DNA of 64,000 nucleotides from Formicincola oecophyllae. Lineage in GTDB: Bacteria; Pseudomonadota; Alphaproteobacteria; Acetobacterales; Acetobacteraceae. The stretch is from the NCBI RefSeq assembly GCF_006542395.2, contig NZ_CP038231.1, forward strand, positions 1,612,001 through 1,676,000, given 5' to 3'. Under the pieces are notes generated by a model. That model had not been told where the DNA came from. It searched no databases and saw only the letters and a program-made list of their open reading frames with translations. This document shows, one piece after another, positions 8,324-55,239 of this stretch. Both the position numbers and the translations under genes were made by a program. Each line of letters begins with the position of its first letter. Position 1 is the first letter of the stretch.

Positions 8324-8397
8324 TGGGAGATAGTTTAGCGGTAGAACTACCGGCTCTGACCCGGTCAGCCCTGGTTCGAATCCAGGTCTCCCAGCCA
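8324..8397 (+). tRNA. tRNA-Gln(CUG), copy 1
   Basis: Folds as a complete cloverleaf. The acceptor stem TGGGAGA pairs with TCTCCCA. The D arm is GTTTAGCGGTAGAAC. The anticodon stem ACCGG/CCGGT encloses loop CTCTGAC with anticodon CTG. The T arm is CCTGG-TTCGAAT-CCAGG, followed by discriminator G and an encoded CCA. U1-A72 pairing and the CTG anticodon identify glutamine. Confidence 0.95.
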
Positions 8398-8663: not shown

Positions 8664-8737
8664 TGGGAGATAGTTTAGCGGTAGAACTACCGGCTCTGAC
8701 CCGGTCAGCCCTGGTTCGAATCCAGGTCTCCCAGCCA
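8664..8737 (+). tRNA. tRNA-Gln(CUG), copy 2
   Basis: Base-for-base identical to the copy at 8324-8397, 340 bases downstream on the same strand, including the encoded CCA. A rho-independent terminator follows at 8759. The identity shows recent duplication or gene conversion. Confidence 0.95.
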
Positions 8738-8758
8738 GAATTCGCGCTTGAAGCCCTA

Positions 8759-8790
8759 ACGCCTGCCGGTACAGCCAGCAGGCGTTTTTT
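8759..8790 (+). terminator. Rho-independent terminator of the tRNA-Gln pair
   Basis: Perfect 8-base stem ACGCCTGC (8759-8766) and GCAGGCGT (8778-8785), an 11-base loop, and a run of six T from 8785. It lies 22 bases after the second tRNA. Confidence 0.85.
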
Positions 8791-50889: not shown

Positions 50890-52329
50890 TCACTTGTTCA
50901 GCTGACTGTGCCTCATGCCGTAGCAGAGATAAACCACCAGCCCCGCCAGCAGCCACAGGAACAGCTGCAGCCATGTGCGCCCGTCCATGGAGGCCATCAC
51001 CACGCTGCAGCACAGAACGCCAAGCGCCGGAATAACCCACGGCCCCCCCGGCACCCGGAAGGAGCGTTGGGCGGTGGGGTTGGTGTGGCGCATGATCATC
51101 ACGCCAGCGCACACCAGCACAAAGGCCAGAAGCGTGCCGATGGACGTCATGTTGCCAAGGACGCGCAGCGGCACGAAGGCCGCCAGCAAGGCTGCCAGCG
51201 TGGCTGAGACCACAACGGCGACCCAGGGGGTCTGCGTGCTTTTGGTCATAGCGCTGAAAGCTGGTGGCAAAAGGCCGTCATCAGCCATGGCGGTGAGGAT
51301 GCGGCTCTGCCCCAGCAGCAGGCCGTAAACCACGGAGATGTAGCCAATGGTGATGCCAAGCTTCACGAACTGCCCCAGGGCCCTTTGGTGGGCGGCGTTC
51401 ATGGCCGTGGCCACGGGGTTGGGGTCGTTGGCGAGCTGCGCCCAGGGCACCACCCCCACCAGAACGAAGGCAAAAATAACGTAGATGATAGCGCAGGCCG
51501 CCACCGTCCCCAGAAGGCCGATGGGGATATTGCGCTGGGGGTTTTTGGTTTCCTTGGTCATGGTGGAGACGACCTCGAAACCGATGAAGGCGAAGAACAC
51601 CATGCCGGCCGCGCGCATGATGCCGCTCCACCCCAGGGCGCCGAACACGCCTGTATTGGCTGGCACGAAGGGGGTGAAGTGCCCCTTGTCCAGGAAAGGC
51701 ACGCACAGCGCGACAAAGGCTAGGAGCACCAGCACCTTGAGGATGACCAAAATGGTGTTGACGCGCGCCGACTGCCTGGTGCCGCGCAGCATCAACAGCG
51801 TGACGGCCAGAACGATGACTACGCTTGGCGCGTTGAGCCAGCCATGCGCCACCGTGCCATCGCTGAGCGTAACCAGGCTGCCGGGGCTTGCCGTCAAGCG
51901 CGGGTCGAGTTGCAGCCCCCACCCCCCCAGCAAAGAGCGCACATAGCCAGACCAGCTGGAAGCCACAGCGGCCGCGTTGACGGTGTATTCCAGCATCAGG
52001 TCCCAGCCGATGACCCAGGCCGCCAACTCCCCAAGGGAGGAGTAGGCGTAGGAATAGGAGGAGCCGCTTGTGGGAATCATCCCAGCTAGTTCAGCGTAGC
52101 ACAGCCCAGCGAAAGCGCAGGCGATGGCCGCGATGAGGAAGGAGAGCGTCACAGCAGGCCCAGCGTAGGACCCAGCCGCGATGCCCGTCAGCGAGAACAG
52201 CCCAGCGCCCACGGTCACGCCAATGCCCAGCGCCACCAGGTGCCAAGCGCTGAGGACGCGCCTGTGCGGTTCAGCGTCCACGGTGGCTGGGGGGGGTACA
52301 GGCTTGATGCGCCAGAAGGGGTGGGTCAT
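50890..52329 (-). CDS. APC-family amino-acid permease, CAT-like
   Basis: 479 residues with about 12-13 hydrophobic helices. GIGVTVGAGLFSLTGIAAG, in the first helix, carries the substrate-binding glycine-rich motif, and SGSSYSYAYSSLGELAAWVIGWDLMLEY, FFAFIGFEVVSTMTKETKNPQRNIP and LLGQSRILTAMADDGLLP match cationic-amino-acid transporters of the YhdG/CAT branch. The substrate cannot be told. ATG 52329 has AGGAGAG five bases upstream. The leader contains a terminator-like hairpin (52413-52448), so premature termination may control it. Confidence 0.9.
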   Translation of the reverse strand: MTHPFWRIKPVPPPATVDAEPHRRVLSAWHLVALGIGVTVGAGLFSLTGIAAGSYAGPAVTLSFLIAAIACAFAGLCYAELAGMIPTSGSSYSYAYSSLGELAAWVIGWDLMLEYTVNAAAVASSWSGYVRSLLGGWGLQLDPRLTASPGSLVTLSDGTVAHGWLNAPSVVIVLAVTLLMLRGTRQSARVNTILVILKVLVLLAFVALCVPFLDKGHFTPFVPANTGVFGALGWSGIMRAAGMVFFAFIGFEVVSTMTKETKNPQRNIPIGLLGTVAACAIIYVIFAFVLVGVVPWAQLANDPNPVATAMNAAHQRALGQFVKLGITIGYISVVYGLLLGQSRILTAMADDGLLPPAFSAMTKSTQTPWVAVVVSATLAALLAAFVPLRVLGNMTSIGTLLAFVLVCAGVMIMRHTNPTAQRSFRVPGGPWVIPALGVLCCSVVMASMDGRTWLQLFLWLLAGLVVYLCYGMRHSQLNK

Positions 52330-52639
52330 GGTTGCTCTCCTGCGTAGGGGCACGGTGTTGGGGCGGCCATGGCACGTGTCAAAGCTTTTCTGGGGGGGCT
52401 GCCCACCAAAAACAGCGCCAGAATGGTTGGGGGACCGTTCTGGCGCTGGCCTGGGGTGTTGGGCAAAAGCCTTCCCCCTGAAAAACAGGGGCCGCGCCAA
52501 GATAGACGGAAAGGGGCGCTGCGCCTATAGAGGAGTGCGTTGGCGGCGTGCGCCATGGCACTATGTGAACGTTCTTTAACGCGCACACGCCGCCCCCACC
52601 TGCCCAGAGGCCCCCGCCCCCTTGCCGGAGACACGCAGC
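52330..52639. other. Divergent regulatory region between the permease and glyA
   Basis: 310 bases without a gene. On the minus strand it holds the permease leader: a CCCCTG-T5-CAGGGG hairpin near 52473-52490, then the terminator hairpin at 52413-52448. Toward glyA there is an 8-base palindrome GAACGTTC (about 52567-52574) inside GTGAACGTTCTTTAAC that may be an operator. I do not see a glycine or SAM riboswitch core, but I cannot run a covariance search. Confidence 0.5.
52413..52448 (-). terminator. Terminator-like hairpin in the permease leader, candidate attenuator
   Basis: CAGCGCCAGAA pairs perfectly with TTCTGGCGCTG over 11 bases, extended inside by GGT/ACC. On the minus strand the stem is followed by TTTTTGG, whereas on the plus strand no T run follows. 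It lies about 85 bases before the permease start and no other minus-strand gene lies upstream of it, so it would terminate the permease's own leader transcript. Confidence 0.7.
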
Positions 52640-53929
52640 ATGACCACCCATGACAGCCAGGCGACCCAGGCGTTCTTCCACGCCAGCCTGAATGAGCGCG
52701 ACCCCGAAACCGCCGCCATCCTCAACCAGGAACTTAAACGCCAGGCAGACGGCATTGAGCTGATCGCCTCTGAGAACATGGCCTCCCAGGCTGTGATGGA
52801 GGCCCAAGGGTCCGTCCTGACCAACAAGTACGCTGAAGGCCTGCCTGGCAAGCGCTACTATGGCGGCTGCGTTGACGTGGACAAGGTGGAGAACCTGGCC
52901 ATTGAGCGCCTGAAAAAGCTGTTCGGCGTCCAGTACGCTAACGTCCAGCCCCACAGCGGCGCCAACGCCAACCAGGCCGCCTTCATGGCGCTGGTCAAGC
53001 CTGGCGACACCATCCTGGGCATGAGCTTGGCTGCTGGCGGCCACCTGACGCACGGTGCGGCCCCCAACTATTCAGGCAAGTGGTTCAAGGCTGTGCAGTA
53101 CGGCGTGCGTAAAGATGACGGGCGCCTTGATTATGATGAGATGGAGCGCCTGGCGCGTGAGCACAAACCGAGCCTGATCGTGGCTGGTGCCTCCGCCTAC
53201 CCGCGTGAGATTGACTTTGCGCGCTTCCGCCGCATCGCTGACGAGGTGGGCGCTGCCCTGATGGTGGACATGGCCCACTACGCAGGCCTGGTCGCCACGG
53301 GCCTCTACCCCAGCCCGGTGCCCTTTGCTGACATCGTCACCACCACCACGCACAAGACCTTGCGTGGCCCGCGCGGCGGCGTTGTAATGACCAACAATCC
53401 CGACATCGCCAAGAAGCTCAACTCAGCCGTGTTCCCAGGGCTGCAGGGCGGCCCGCTGATGCAGGTCATCGCTGGCAAGGCCGTAGCATTTGGGGAGGCT
53501 CTGAAGCCAGACTTCAAGGCTTACCAGCAGCGTGTCCTGGCCAATGCGCGCGCCCTTTCAGACGAACTTGCCAAGCGCGGCTTTGACATCGTCTCAGGCG
53601 GGACGGACTGCCACCTCATCCTGGTGGACCTGCGCCCTAAGGGCGTCACCGGCAAAGTGGCTGAGAACCTGCTTGAGCGCGCAGGCATCACAGCCAACAA
53701 AAACGCCGTCCCCTTCGACCCTGAAAAGCCCTTCGTGACGTCAGGCCTGCGCCTGGGCAGCCCTGCTGCCACCACGCGCGGCTTTGGGGAGGGGGAGTTC
53801 CGCGACATCGCCCGCATGATTGACGAAGTTCTGAGCGCTGGCGATGACGAAGCCACCATCCAGAAAGTGCGCGCTGAGGTAGAAGCGCTGTGCAAGCGCT
53901 TTCCCATCTACAGCCACGCCTGGGCCTGA
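52640..53929 (+). CDS. glyA: Serine hydroxymethyltransferase
   Basis: Interconverts serine and glycine with tetrahydrofolate and PLP. 429 residues from ATG 52640. Conserved [54 protein letters not shown], the PLP lysine in [14 protein letters not shown], and [10 protein letters not shown]. The frame can be extended to a TTG at 52622 but that is not needed. Confidence 0.97.
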
Positions 53930-53964: not shown

Positions 53965-55239
53965 TCAGGCGGGGGCTGGGACGATGCGCACCTTTTGCCC
54001 TGTGCGCCGCTCCACCTCGCGCAGGGCGAAGCGGTCTTCAGGGCTGAGGAGGGACAGCGCGTTGCCCCGCCTGCCTGCACGCGCCGTCCTGCCAATGCGG
54101 TGGATGTAAAGCTCGGCGCTGGCGGGCAGCCCCATGTTGATGACCTGACCAACGCCATCGATGTCCAGCCCGCGCGCCGCCACGTCTGTGGTCACCAGAA
54201 CGCCGGCGGGCGCCTGGCTGAAATGGGCCAGCGCTGCTTTACGCGCCCCCTGCGCCAAATCGCCGTGGAGTGCTACGCTGTCCTGGCCAGCGCGCGCCAG
54301 CAGGTCGTTCAGGCGCCGTGCCTCCCGCTTGGTATTGACGAAGACGATAGTGCGTGAAGCCCCCCCAGCCGTGCCGCCTTTGCGCCCGTCATGGCGCTGG
54401 CCTGCTTGCAGCTTAGCCAAGATGGCTGGCAGTGCACCCTCCCGCACAGCTTGGTTGATGAACATGGCTTGCTGGCGGATGGTGGCTGGCAGGGGGGCGT
54501 CCACCGTTAGGTCAAGCTGCACGGGGTTGCGGGTGACGGTGCGCGCGAAATCCATAAAGCCAGGCTGCAGCGTGGCGGAGCAGAACACCGTTTGCTGGCG
54601 GTTTTCCAAATAGGGCGCAAGCGCCGTCATGGCTTCGGAGAACTCGTCATCTAGAAGGCGGTCGGCTTCATCAAGTACCAGGTGGGTGACGCCGTCCAGG
54701 ACAAGCGCGCCTTGCTGGGCCAGGTCTAGGATGCGCCCAATGGTGCCGACCACCACATCTACACCACCAGCCAGCCCTTCCACCTGGCGCTGCCTATCAA
54801 GCCCGCCACACACAACGCGCGTGCGCAGCCCCATGTGCCGGCCAAGTTGGCGGCTGACGCCGGCAGTCTGGGTGGCCAGGTCGCGCGTGGGCGCCAGCAC
54901 CAGGACGCGTGGCGTGCGCTCCCCCGCAGCCTCAGCTTCAGCTTGTTCAAGCTGGCTCATGATAGGCAGGAGGAAAGCAGCCGTTTTGCCAGACCCCGTA
55001 GGCCCCACCAGCAAGGCATCCCGCCCTGCAGCCAACGTGGGGATGACGCTTTGCTGGATGGACGTTGGCTTGCTGAACCCGGCAGCAGCCGCTGCCGCGC
55101 AGGCTTGGGGGGAGAGGCCAAGGGCCGCGAAGCTCTGGGGGCCTTCAGCAACGTTTGGTGGGGAAGGCGTGGAGGAAAGGTCAGGCGTGGCACTGCTCGT
55201 GGCGCTAGCAGGGGTGCTGTCAGGTGAAGAAATGGTCAT
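53965..55239 (-). CDS. DEAD-box RNA helicase, RhlE-like
   Basis: 424 residues. Q motif region GFSKPTSIQQSVIP, Walker A VGPTGSGKTAAFLLP, APTRDLATQ, DEAD in HLVLDEADRLLDDEF, motif III FCSATL, then RecA2 motifs VFVNTKREARRL, TDVAARGLDIDGVGQVINMG and HRIGRTARAGRRG. The first 35 residues are a Ser/Thr/Pro-rich disordered leader, and there is no long C-terminal extension. Likely works in rRNA or mRNA remodelling. Convergent with glyA. Confidence 0.95.
   Translation of the reverse strand: MTISSPDSTPASATSSATPDLSSTPSPPNVAEGPQSFAALGLSPQACAAAAAAGFSKPTSIQQSVIPTLAAGRDALLVGPTGSGKTAAFLLPIMSQLEQAEAEAAGERTPRVLVLAPTRDLATQTAGVSRQLGRHMGLRTRVVCGGLDRQRQVEGLAGGVDVVVGTIGRILDLAQQGALVLDGVTHLVLDEADRLLDDEFSEAMTALAPYLENRQQTVFCSATLQPGFMDFARTVTRNPVQLDLTVDAPLPATIRQQAMFINQAVREGALPAILAKLQAGQRHDGRKGGTAGGASRTIVFVNTKREARRLNDLLARAGQDSVALHGDLAQGARKAALAHFSQAPAGVLVTTDVAARGLDIDGVGQVINMGLPASAELYIHRIGRTARAGRRGNALSLLSPEDRFALREVERRTGQKVRIVPAPA

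Follow-up and report, generated by a model that had tools for sequence, protein, structure and literature searches.

A stable stem-loop of 11 perfect outer base pairs followed directly by five T residues lies on the strand of an amino-acid permease gene that diverges from glyA in the Formicincola oecophyllae genome, and it is found at this one place in the genome and was not found at the same position in the other genera examined. At a probability just short of even, the best reading is an intrinsic terminator, specific to this lineage and located in the 5′ leader of the permease, that would throttle or insulate the gene constitutively and not serve as a ligand switch. The window referred to below is the whole 64,000-nt stretch of DNA that was analyzed.

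Genes flanking the terminator

The host is presumably a small-genome acetic acid bacterium (1.96 Mb). The permease (50890..52329, minus strand) was assigned by profile and structure matches to the APC superfamily as a CAT/BcaP-like amino-acid permease; it matches AA_permease_2 and scores 483.5 bits against the BcaP model, below the NCBI equivalog cut-off of 690. Its best solved relatives are the bacterial CAT-like APC transporters PDB 5oqt (E 1.3e-115) and 6f34 (E 1.2e-114). Paralogues of the permease are present elsewhere in the genome (e.g. L220 and L221), with a single copy beside glyA. The serine hydroxymethyltransferase gene glyA (52640..53929, plus strand; 647.2 bits against a cut-off of 335) is divergent from the permease, with an intergenic gap of 310 nt. 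The next minus-strand gene upstream is at 53965-55239, beyond glyA, in agreement with an earlier sequence-only reading of this DNA which held that no other minus-strand gene could need a terminator here.

Structure and strength of the terminator

The stem-loop (52413..52448, minus strand) consists of two 15-nt arms, 52413-52427 and 52434-52448, which are 93% complementary and form 11 perfect outer pairs, one mismatch and 3 further pairs around a 6-nt loop. On the minus strand it reads CAGCGCCAGAACGGTCCCCCAACCATTCTGGCGCTG, then TTTTT, with the T5 run (52408..52412) directly abutting the stem. The permease ATG follows 83 nt after the end of the stem and 78 nt after that of the T-run, so that both the perfect 11-base stem with its T5 and the position about 85 bases before the permease start, as described by the sequence-only reading, were borne out. 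Folded as minus-strand RNA, 52404-52450 reaches -24.3 kcal/mol, whereas its shuffles average -11.4 (z -4.48) and none of 200 equals it, and the whole region 52328-52620 on the same strand gives -145 against -121.7 (z -4.15; 0/200). In a scan of the window for perfect stems whose inner loop is no longer than 14 nt and which run directly into a T-rich tail, only this stem had at least 11 bp, and no such stem arose in 60 dinucleotide shuffles of the window. The arm pattern, even with up to 3 mismatches, occurs at a single place in the genome, which rules out a dispersed repeat. A stable G+C-rich stem directly before a U-run is the sequence mark of an intrinsic (Rho-independent) terminator, and by its sequence the hairpin is a genuine predicted 5′ terminator facing the permease, probably inside the transcribed leader of that gene. 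A second hairpin just upstream, CCCCTG-TTTTT-CAGGGG (52475..52491, minus strand), had been described as well; it is indeed present, but its stability is at chance level, with 74 of 200 shuffles as stable (z -0.31).

The terminator was compared with others in a 464-kb sample of the genome with crude gene calls, in which 836 sites were reduced by filtering to 107 and, after removal of 52 inside called genes, to 55 intergenic terminators. It ranks 15th of these 55 in stability, and 13 of the 41 gene-end terminators in the sample (mean -20.2) are at least as stable. Terminator-like sites occur in 8 of the 41 divergent intergenic regions of the sample, the one in the permease leader being the most stable. 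In the survey by Naville and Gautheret (2010, PMC2965389), the mean stability of terminators was lower in 5′ UTRs than in 3′ UTRs (-16.5 vs -20.2 kcal/mol), and the permease-leader terminator falls on the 3′ side of this comparison; being as strong as gene-end terminators sets it apart from the 5′ terminators described there. It resembles the 5′ premature terminators, or candidate attenuators, covered in that work in being an intrinsic terminator on the strand of the gene, within ~100 nt of the start, before a transporter gene.

Two further sites can be recorded from these comparisons. One of the other seven terminator-like sites in divergent regions comes after tRNA genes, and a strong terminator-like hairpin (L232:17064-17111, minus strand; -20.5) in a divergent region precedes a same-strand called gene by 114 nt and has no Rfam match.

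A shared promoter-like footprint

Alignment of 18 of the 31 glyA-permease regions (own included) brought out an interlocked promoter-like footprint at 52499..52531 on both strands, in which TAGACG-17-TATAGA on the plus strand would serve glyA and TAGGCG-17-TATCTT on the minus strand the permease. The footprint set was picked by the motif GTCTAT, which is present in 12 of the 18 aligned regions, representing five genera, while the remaining 6 hold another motif. Among these 12 genomes, the minus-strand hexamer 17 nt upstream of TAT(C/T)NT is TAGGCG in 10, the others being TAGTGC in G085, the nearest genus by glyA, and TATGCT in G151. Each -10 overlaps the -35 of the opposite strand, and the hexamers are weak (4/6 and 4/6 on the plus strand, 3/6 and 4/6 on the minus strand). 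The minus-strand -10 is 40-51 nt from the permease start in 10 of the 12 genomes, 169 nt here and 163 nt in G085.

The footprint looks like a promoter shared by glyA and the permease, from which the permease transcript would begin at ~52491-52493, upstream of the stem; since a start upstream of the stem is thus predicted, premature termination is plausible. In a report on bidirectional promoters (PMC10268837), opposite-strand starts likewise arise from one short stretch, but there they are 7-25 bp apart, whereas the starts predicted here would be ~46 bp apart, with each -10 overlapping the opposite -35.

Distribution among relatives

Synteny was followed in 30 picked relatives of the same family and three further genomes. 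glyA is present in all 30 relatives, and a permease relative is divergent from it in 27; the permease matches of G045 and G131 are located away from glyA and no match was obtained in G071 at E 1e-90, so that all three are outside the region set. The further genomes (G094, G041 and G064) have the same glyA/permease pair. In G116 (L200), the permease array lies ~11 kb away from glyA, and this genome was omitted from the terminator scan because of the insertion. With one filter applied to the 30 glyA-permease regions, in which the permease starts of distant relatives are alignment estimates, a terminator toward the permease was found in the region under study and in 0 of the 29 others, and none was found toward glyA in any of the 30. 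A looser scan recovers other hairpins, weaker or of a different build, in several leaders and between tandem permeases, but none of them is this stem. As the genome (G000) is the sole one of its genus in the comparison set, the absence concerns other genera and not congeners. The sequence-only reading had named lack of conservation of the stem in relatives as a result that would refute it, and for the genera examined this is the result obtained. The pair itself is, by sequence comparison, widely conserved in the family, where it occurs without this terminator.

At the DNA level, a search of 397 genomes (own included, with two candidates scored in each) gave short matches as the strongest ones outside the genome, with E 8e-5 at best, and the first four of these fall in the part of the query next to glyA. 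The leader showed no homology above shuffles with the leader of G085, either by global alignment (score 59, shuffles averaging 55.4 and 98 of 300 reaching that score) or by local alignment (21 vs 17.1; 34 of 300). G062 and G141 (L206 and L208), the two species of a single genus, each have a 10-bp hairpin whose end is no more than ~30 nt from the estimated start of the permease.

Searches for sensor RNAs and leader peptides

The sequence-only reading had proposed an expression platform that stops transcription unless a signal intervenes, with an unlisted riboswitch among the candidates and a glycine or serine signal as a tempting one. The platform stands in part: a terminator lies between the footprint and the permease, and a stop unless read through is a reasonable expectation, but the intervening signal was not supported. 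No Rfam family matched at the locus, and the glycine riboswitch model (RF00504) found no match over the whole genome, although in a control it did match Bacillus subtilis and Caulobacter vibrioides. The locus is like that riboswitch in adjoining a glycine metabolism gene and differs in the absence of a match at the locus or in the genome; the glycine riboswitch and the other Rfam classes were ruled out on these covariance searches, at the locus for Rfam and over the genome for glycine. A glycine or serine riboswitch is not supported. Upstream of the stem as far as 52520, the minus strand contains no ATG or GTG that could open a leader peptide, and only TTG at 52500 and 52466.

RNA running from 52510 to the terminator 5′ arm is predicted to fold as a three-way junction that sequesters the arm, and a covariance model of this putative junction was built from the one sequence, scoring 113 bits against itself. 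In 396 other genomes of the family it gave seven matches with E 0.003-0.08 per genome, which is chance level over that number of searches, though the strict filters used may miss weak ones; the seven loci had no permease or glyA by tblastn at 1e-3. At 30 homologous loci, two paralogue loci and in the window, the model found only matches with E of at least 1.5 apart from itself. The covariance search in relatives which the sequence-only reading had suggested thus gave nothing above chance among these genomes or homologous loci. A literature search returned no paper joining glyA, a riboswitch, an amino acid permease and a terminator.

Competing explanations

Conditional attenuation is possible but, on balance, unlikely. 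It supposes that RNA starting at ~52510 or upstream forms the three-way junction, with the terminator 5′ arm in its closing helix, and that a metabolite, protein, small RNA or ribosome signal shifts the balance. The possible antiterminator strand (52489..52510, minus strand, from folding) pairs with the 5′ arm (52434-52451) only if it is transcribed; together they reach -25.0 kcal/mol against -18.0 for shuffled upstream sequence, with 3 of 500 shuffles as good. This competitor ranks first among the 55 intergenic terminators of the sample (p 0.017, z -2.69), and the RNA that runs as far as the 5′ arm has folding z-scores of -2.76, -2.05 and -1.86 when it starts at 52512, 52530 and 52505. However, some terminator of the 55 must rank first, and 6 of them have p of at most 0.03. 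By duplex prediction the pairing requires a start at ~52500-52510 or above (p 0-0.0075 from 52510 and above, a marginal 0.085 at 52501 and 0.145 at 52498, and 0.26-0.51 at 52495 and below) and vanishes from the footprint promoter, with p 0.35 at 52493; the 5′ strand of the helix in fact overlaps the footprint. Even from 52510, the terminator form is favored by ~9 kcal/mol (-44.0 vs -34.9), and from 52493 it stands at -39.9 against -20.2 with the 3′ arm kept single-stranded. Structural relatives are not above chance in the other genomes or homologous loci, and whereas the attenuator families in PMC2965389 recur across species at the same gene, this terminator occurs in 1 of 30 glyA-permease regions, its own, in a comparison that covers other genera and omits G116. 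A riboswitch is unlikely, and its most specific form, a lineage-restricted switch of an undescribed sensor class in which a three-way-junction leader (52510-52434), its closing helix sequestering the terminator 5′ arm, gates the permease by a glyA-linked metabolite (serine, glycine or folate), is very improbable.

The hairpin could instead be a relic, in that the genome would have lost the first of several tandem permeases and kept the 3′ terminator of the lost copy, although this is improbable. Sister genera (L190-L200, L202) have 2-4 tandem paralogous permeases divergent from glyA where this genome has one, and trees place the surviving permease beside the second of the copies in the nearest genus (87/97 with a long branch, and 81/92 in a larger tree), its grouping with the third copy being rejected (p-AU 0.0245). 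In G133 and G048 the looser scan also shows stable hairpins (-18.8 and -16.9), located ~60 nt upstream of the second permease and followed by a weak T tail. Against the relic, the AU test also allows a grouping with the first copy (p-AU 0.208 and 0.201), the nearest genus keeps its first copy and yet has a leader nearly as long, and by the stricter filter none of 26 gaps between tandem permeases holds a terminator. A remnant of a deleted permease was sought in the region and dismissed, the best score of 42 being within the 38-56 of 30 shuffles. About equally improbable is an independent small RNA, ~85-105 nt long, that would start close to the shared promoter and end at the hairpin, as the footprint, the short transcript length and the strong terminator would allow; the permease would then depend on a downstream TTGACA (52377..52382, minus strand), a possible -35 below the terminator. 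This perfect hexamer sits 53 nt before the ATG and is expected 0.01 times in the 83 nt between stem and ATG, but in the sample the enrichment of TTGACA upstream of called genes is only about two-fold (8 sites in 27,298 upstream bases, 144 overall), the -10 is poor here (2/6), and for such an RNA no Rfam match appears at the locus and no relative above chance in the 396 other genomes. Somewhat less probable again is a DNA palindrome serving as an operator, or a functionless hairpin with a chance T5. Long inverted repeats can serve as operators, and the palindrome pairs better as plus-strand RNA (-30.9 vs -24.3 kcal/mol), on which strand no T-run follows it; however, the T5 directly abuts the stem on the permease-facing strand, and the window shuffles produced no such stem before a T-rich tail.

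Proposed mechanism and implications

As the terminator was not found at this position in the related genera examined and the searches lent no support to a signal, it is most likely an ordinary premature terminator that was recently gained. In the favored reading of a throttle or insulator, transcription toward the permease would start at the promoter shared back to back with glyA, at ~52492, and polymerase would meet the hairpin after ~45 nt and mostly end at the T-run, leaving a short RNA of ~85 nt. The permease would then be expressed from read-through and perhaps also from a weak second promoter below the stem, with the terminator presumably working constitutively, as a throttle or an insulator free of regulation. 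To keep a strong terminator between promoter and gene would be costly unless it is lifted, which favors regulation and counts against an unregulated throttle, as do the antiterminator pairing from starts at 52510 or above and the better-than-shuffled fold of the whole region 52328-52620.

The hairpin looks like a strong terminator acquired next to a long-standing divergent gene pair, and it may be raw material for the origin of an attenuator. More generally, the widely kept glyA/permease pair, the interlocked promoter-like footprint and the repeated duplication of the permease suggest that amino-acid uptake in the family may be linked to glycine/serine metabolism, which can be tested.

Inverted repeats elsewhere in the window include a 12-nt repeat (92%) in the glyA leader at 52542-52594, the glyA side of the intergenic region being longer here than in sister genera, and a strong terminator-like hairpin at 8758-8786 that comes after two tRNA genes (8324-8394 and 8664-8734) with equal model scores.
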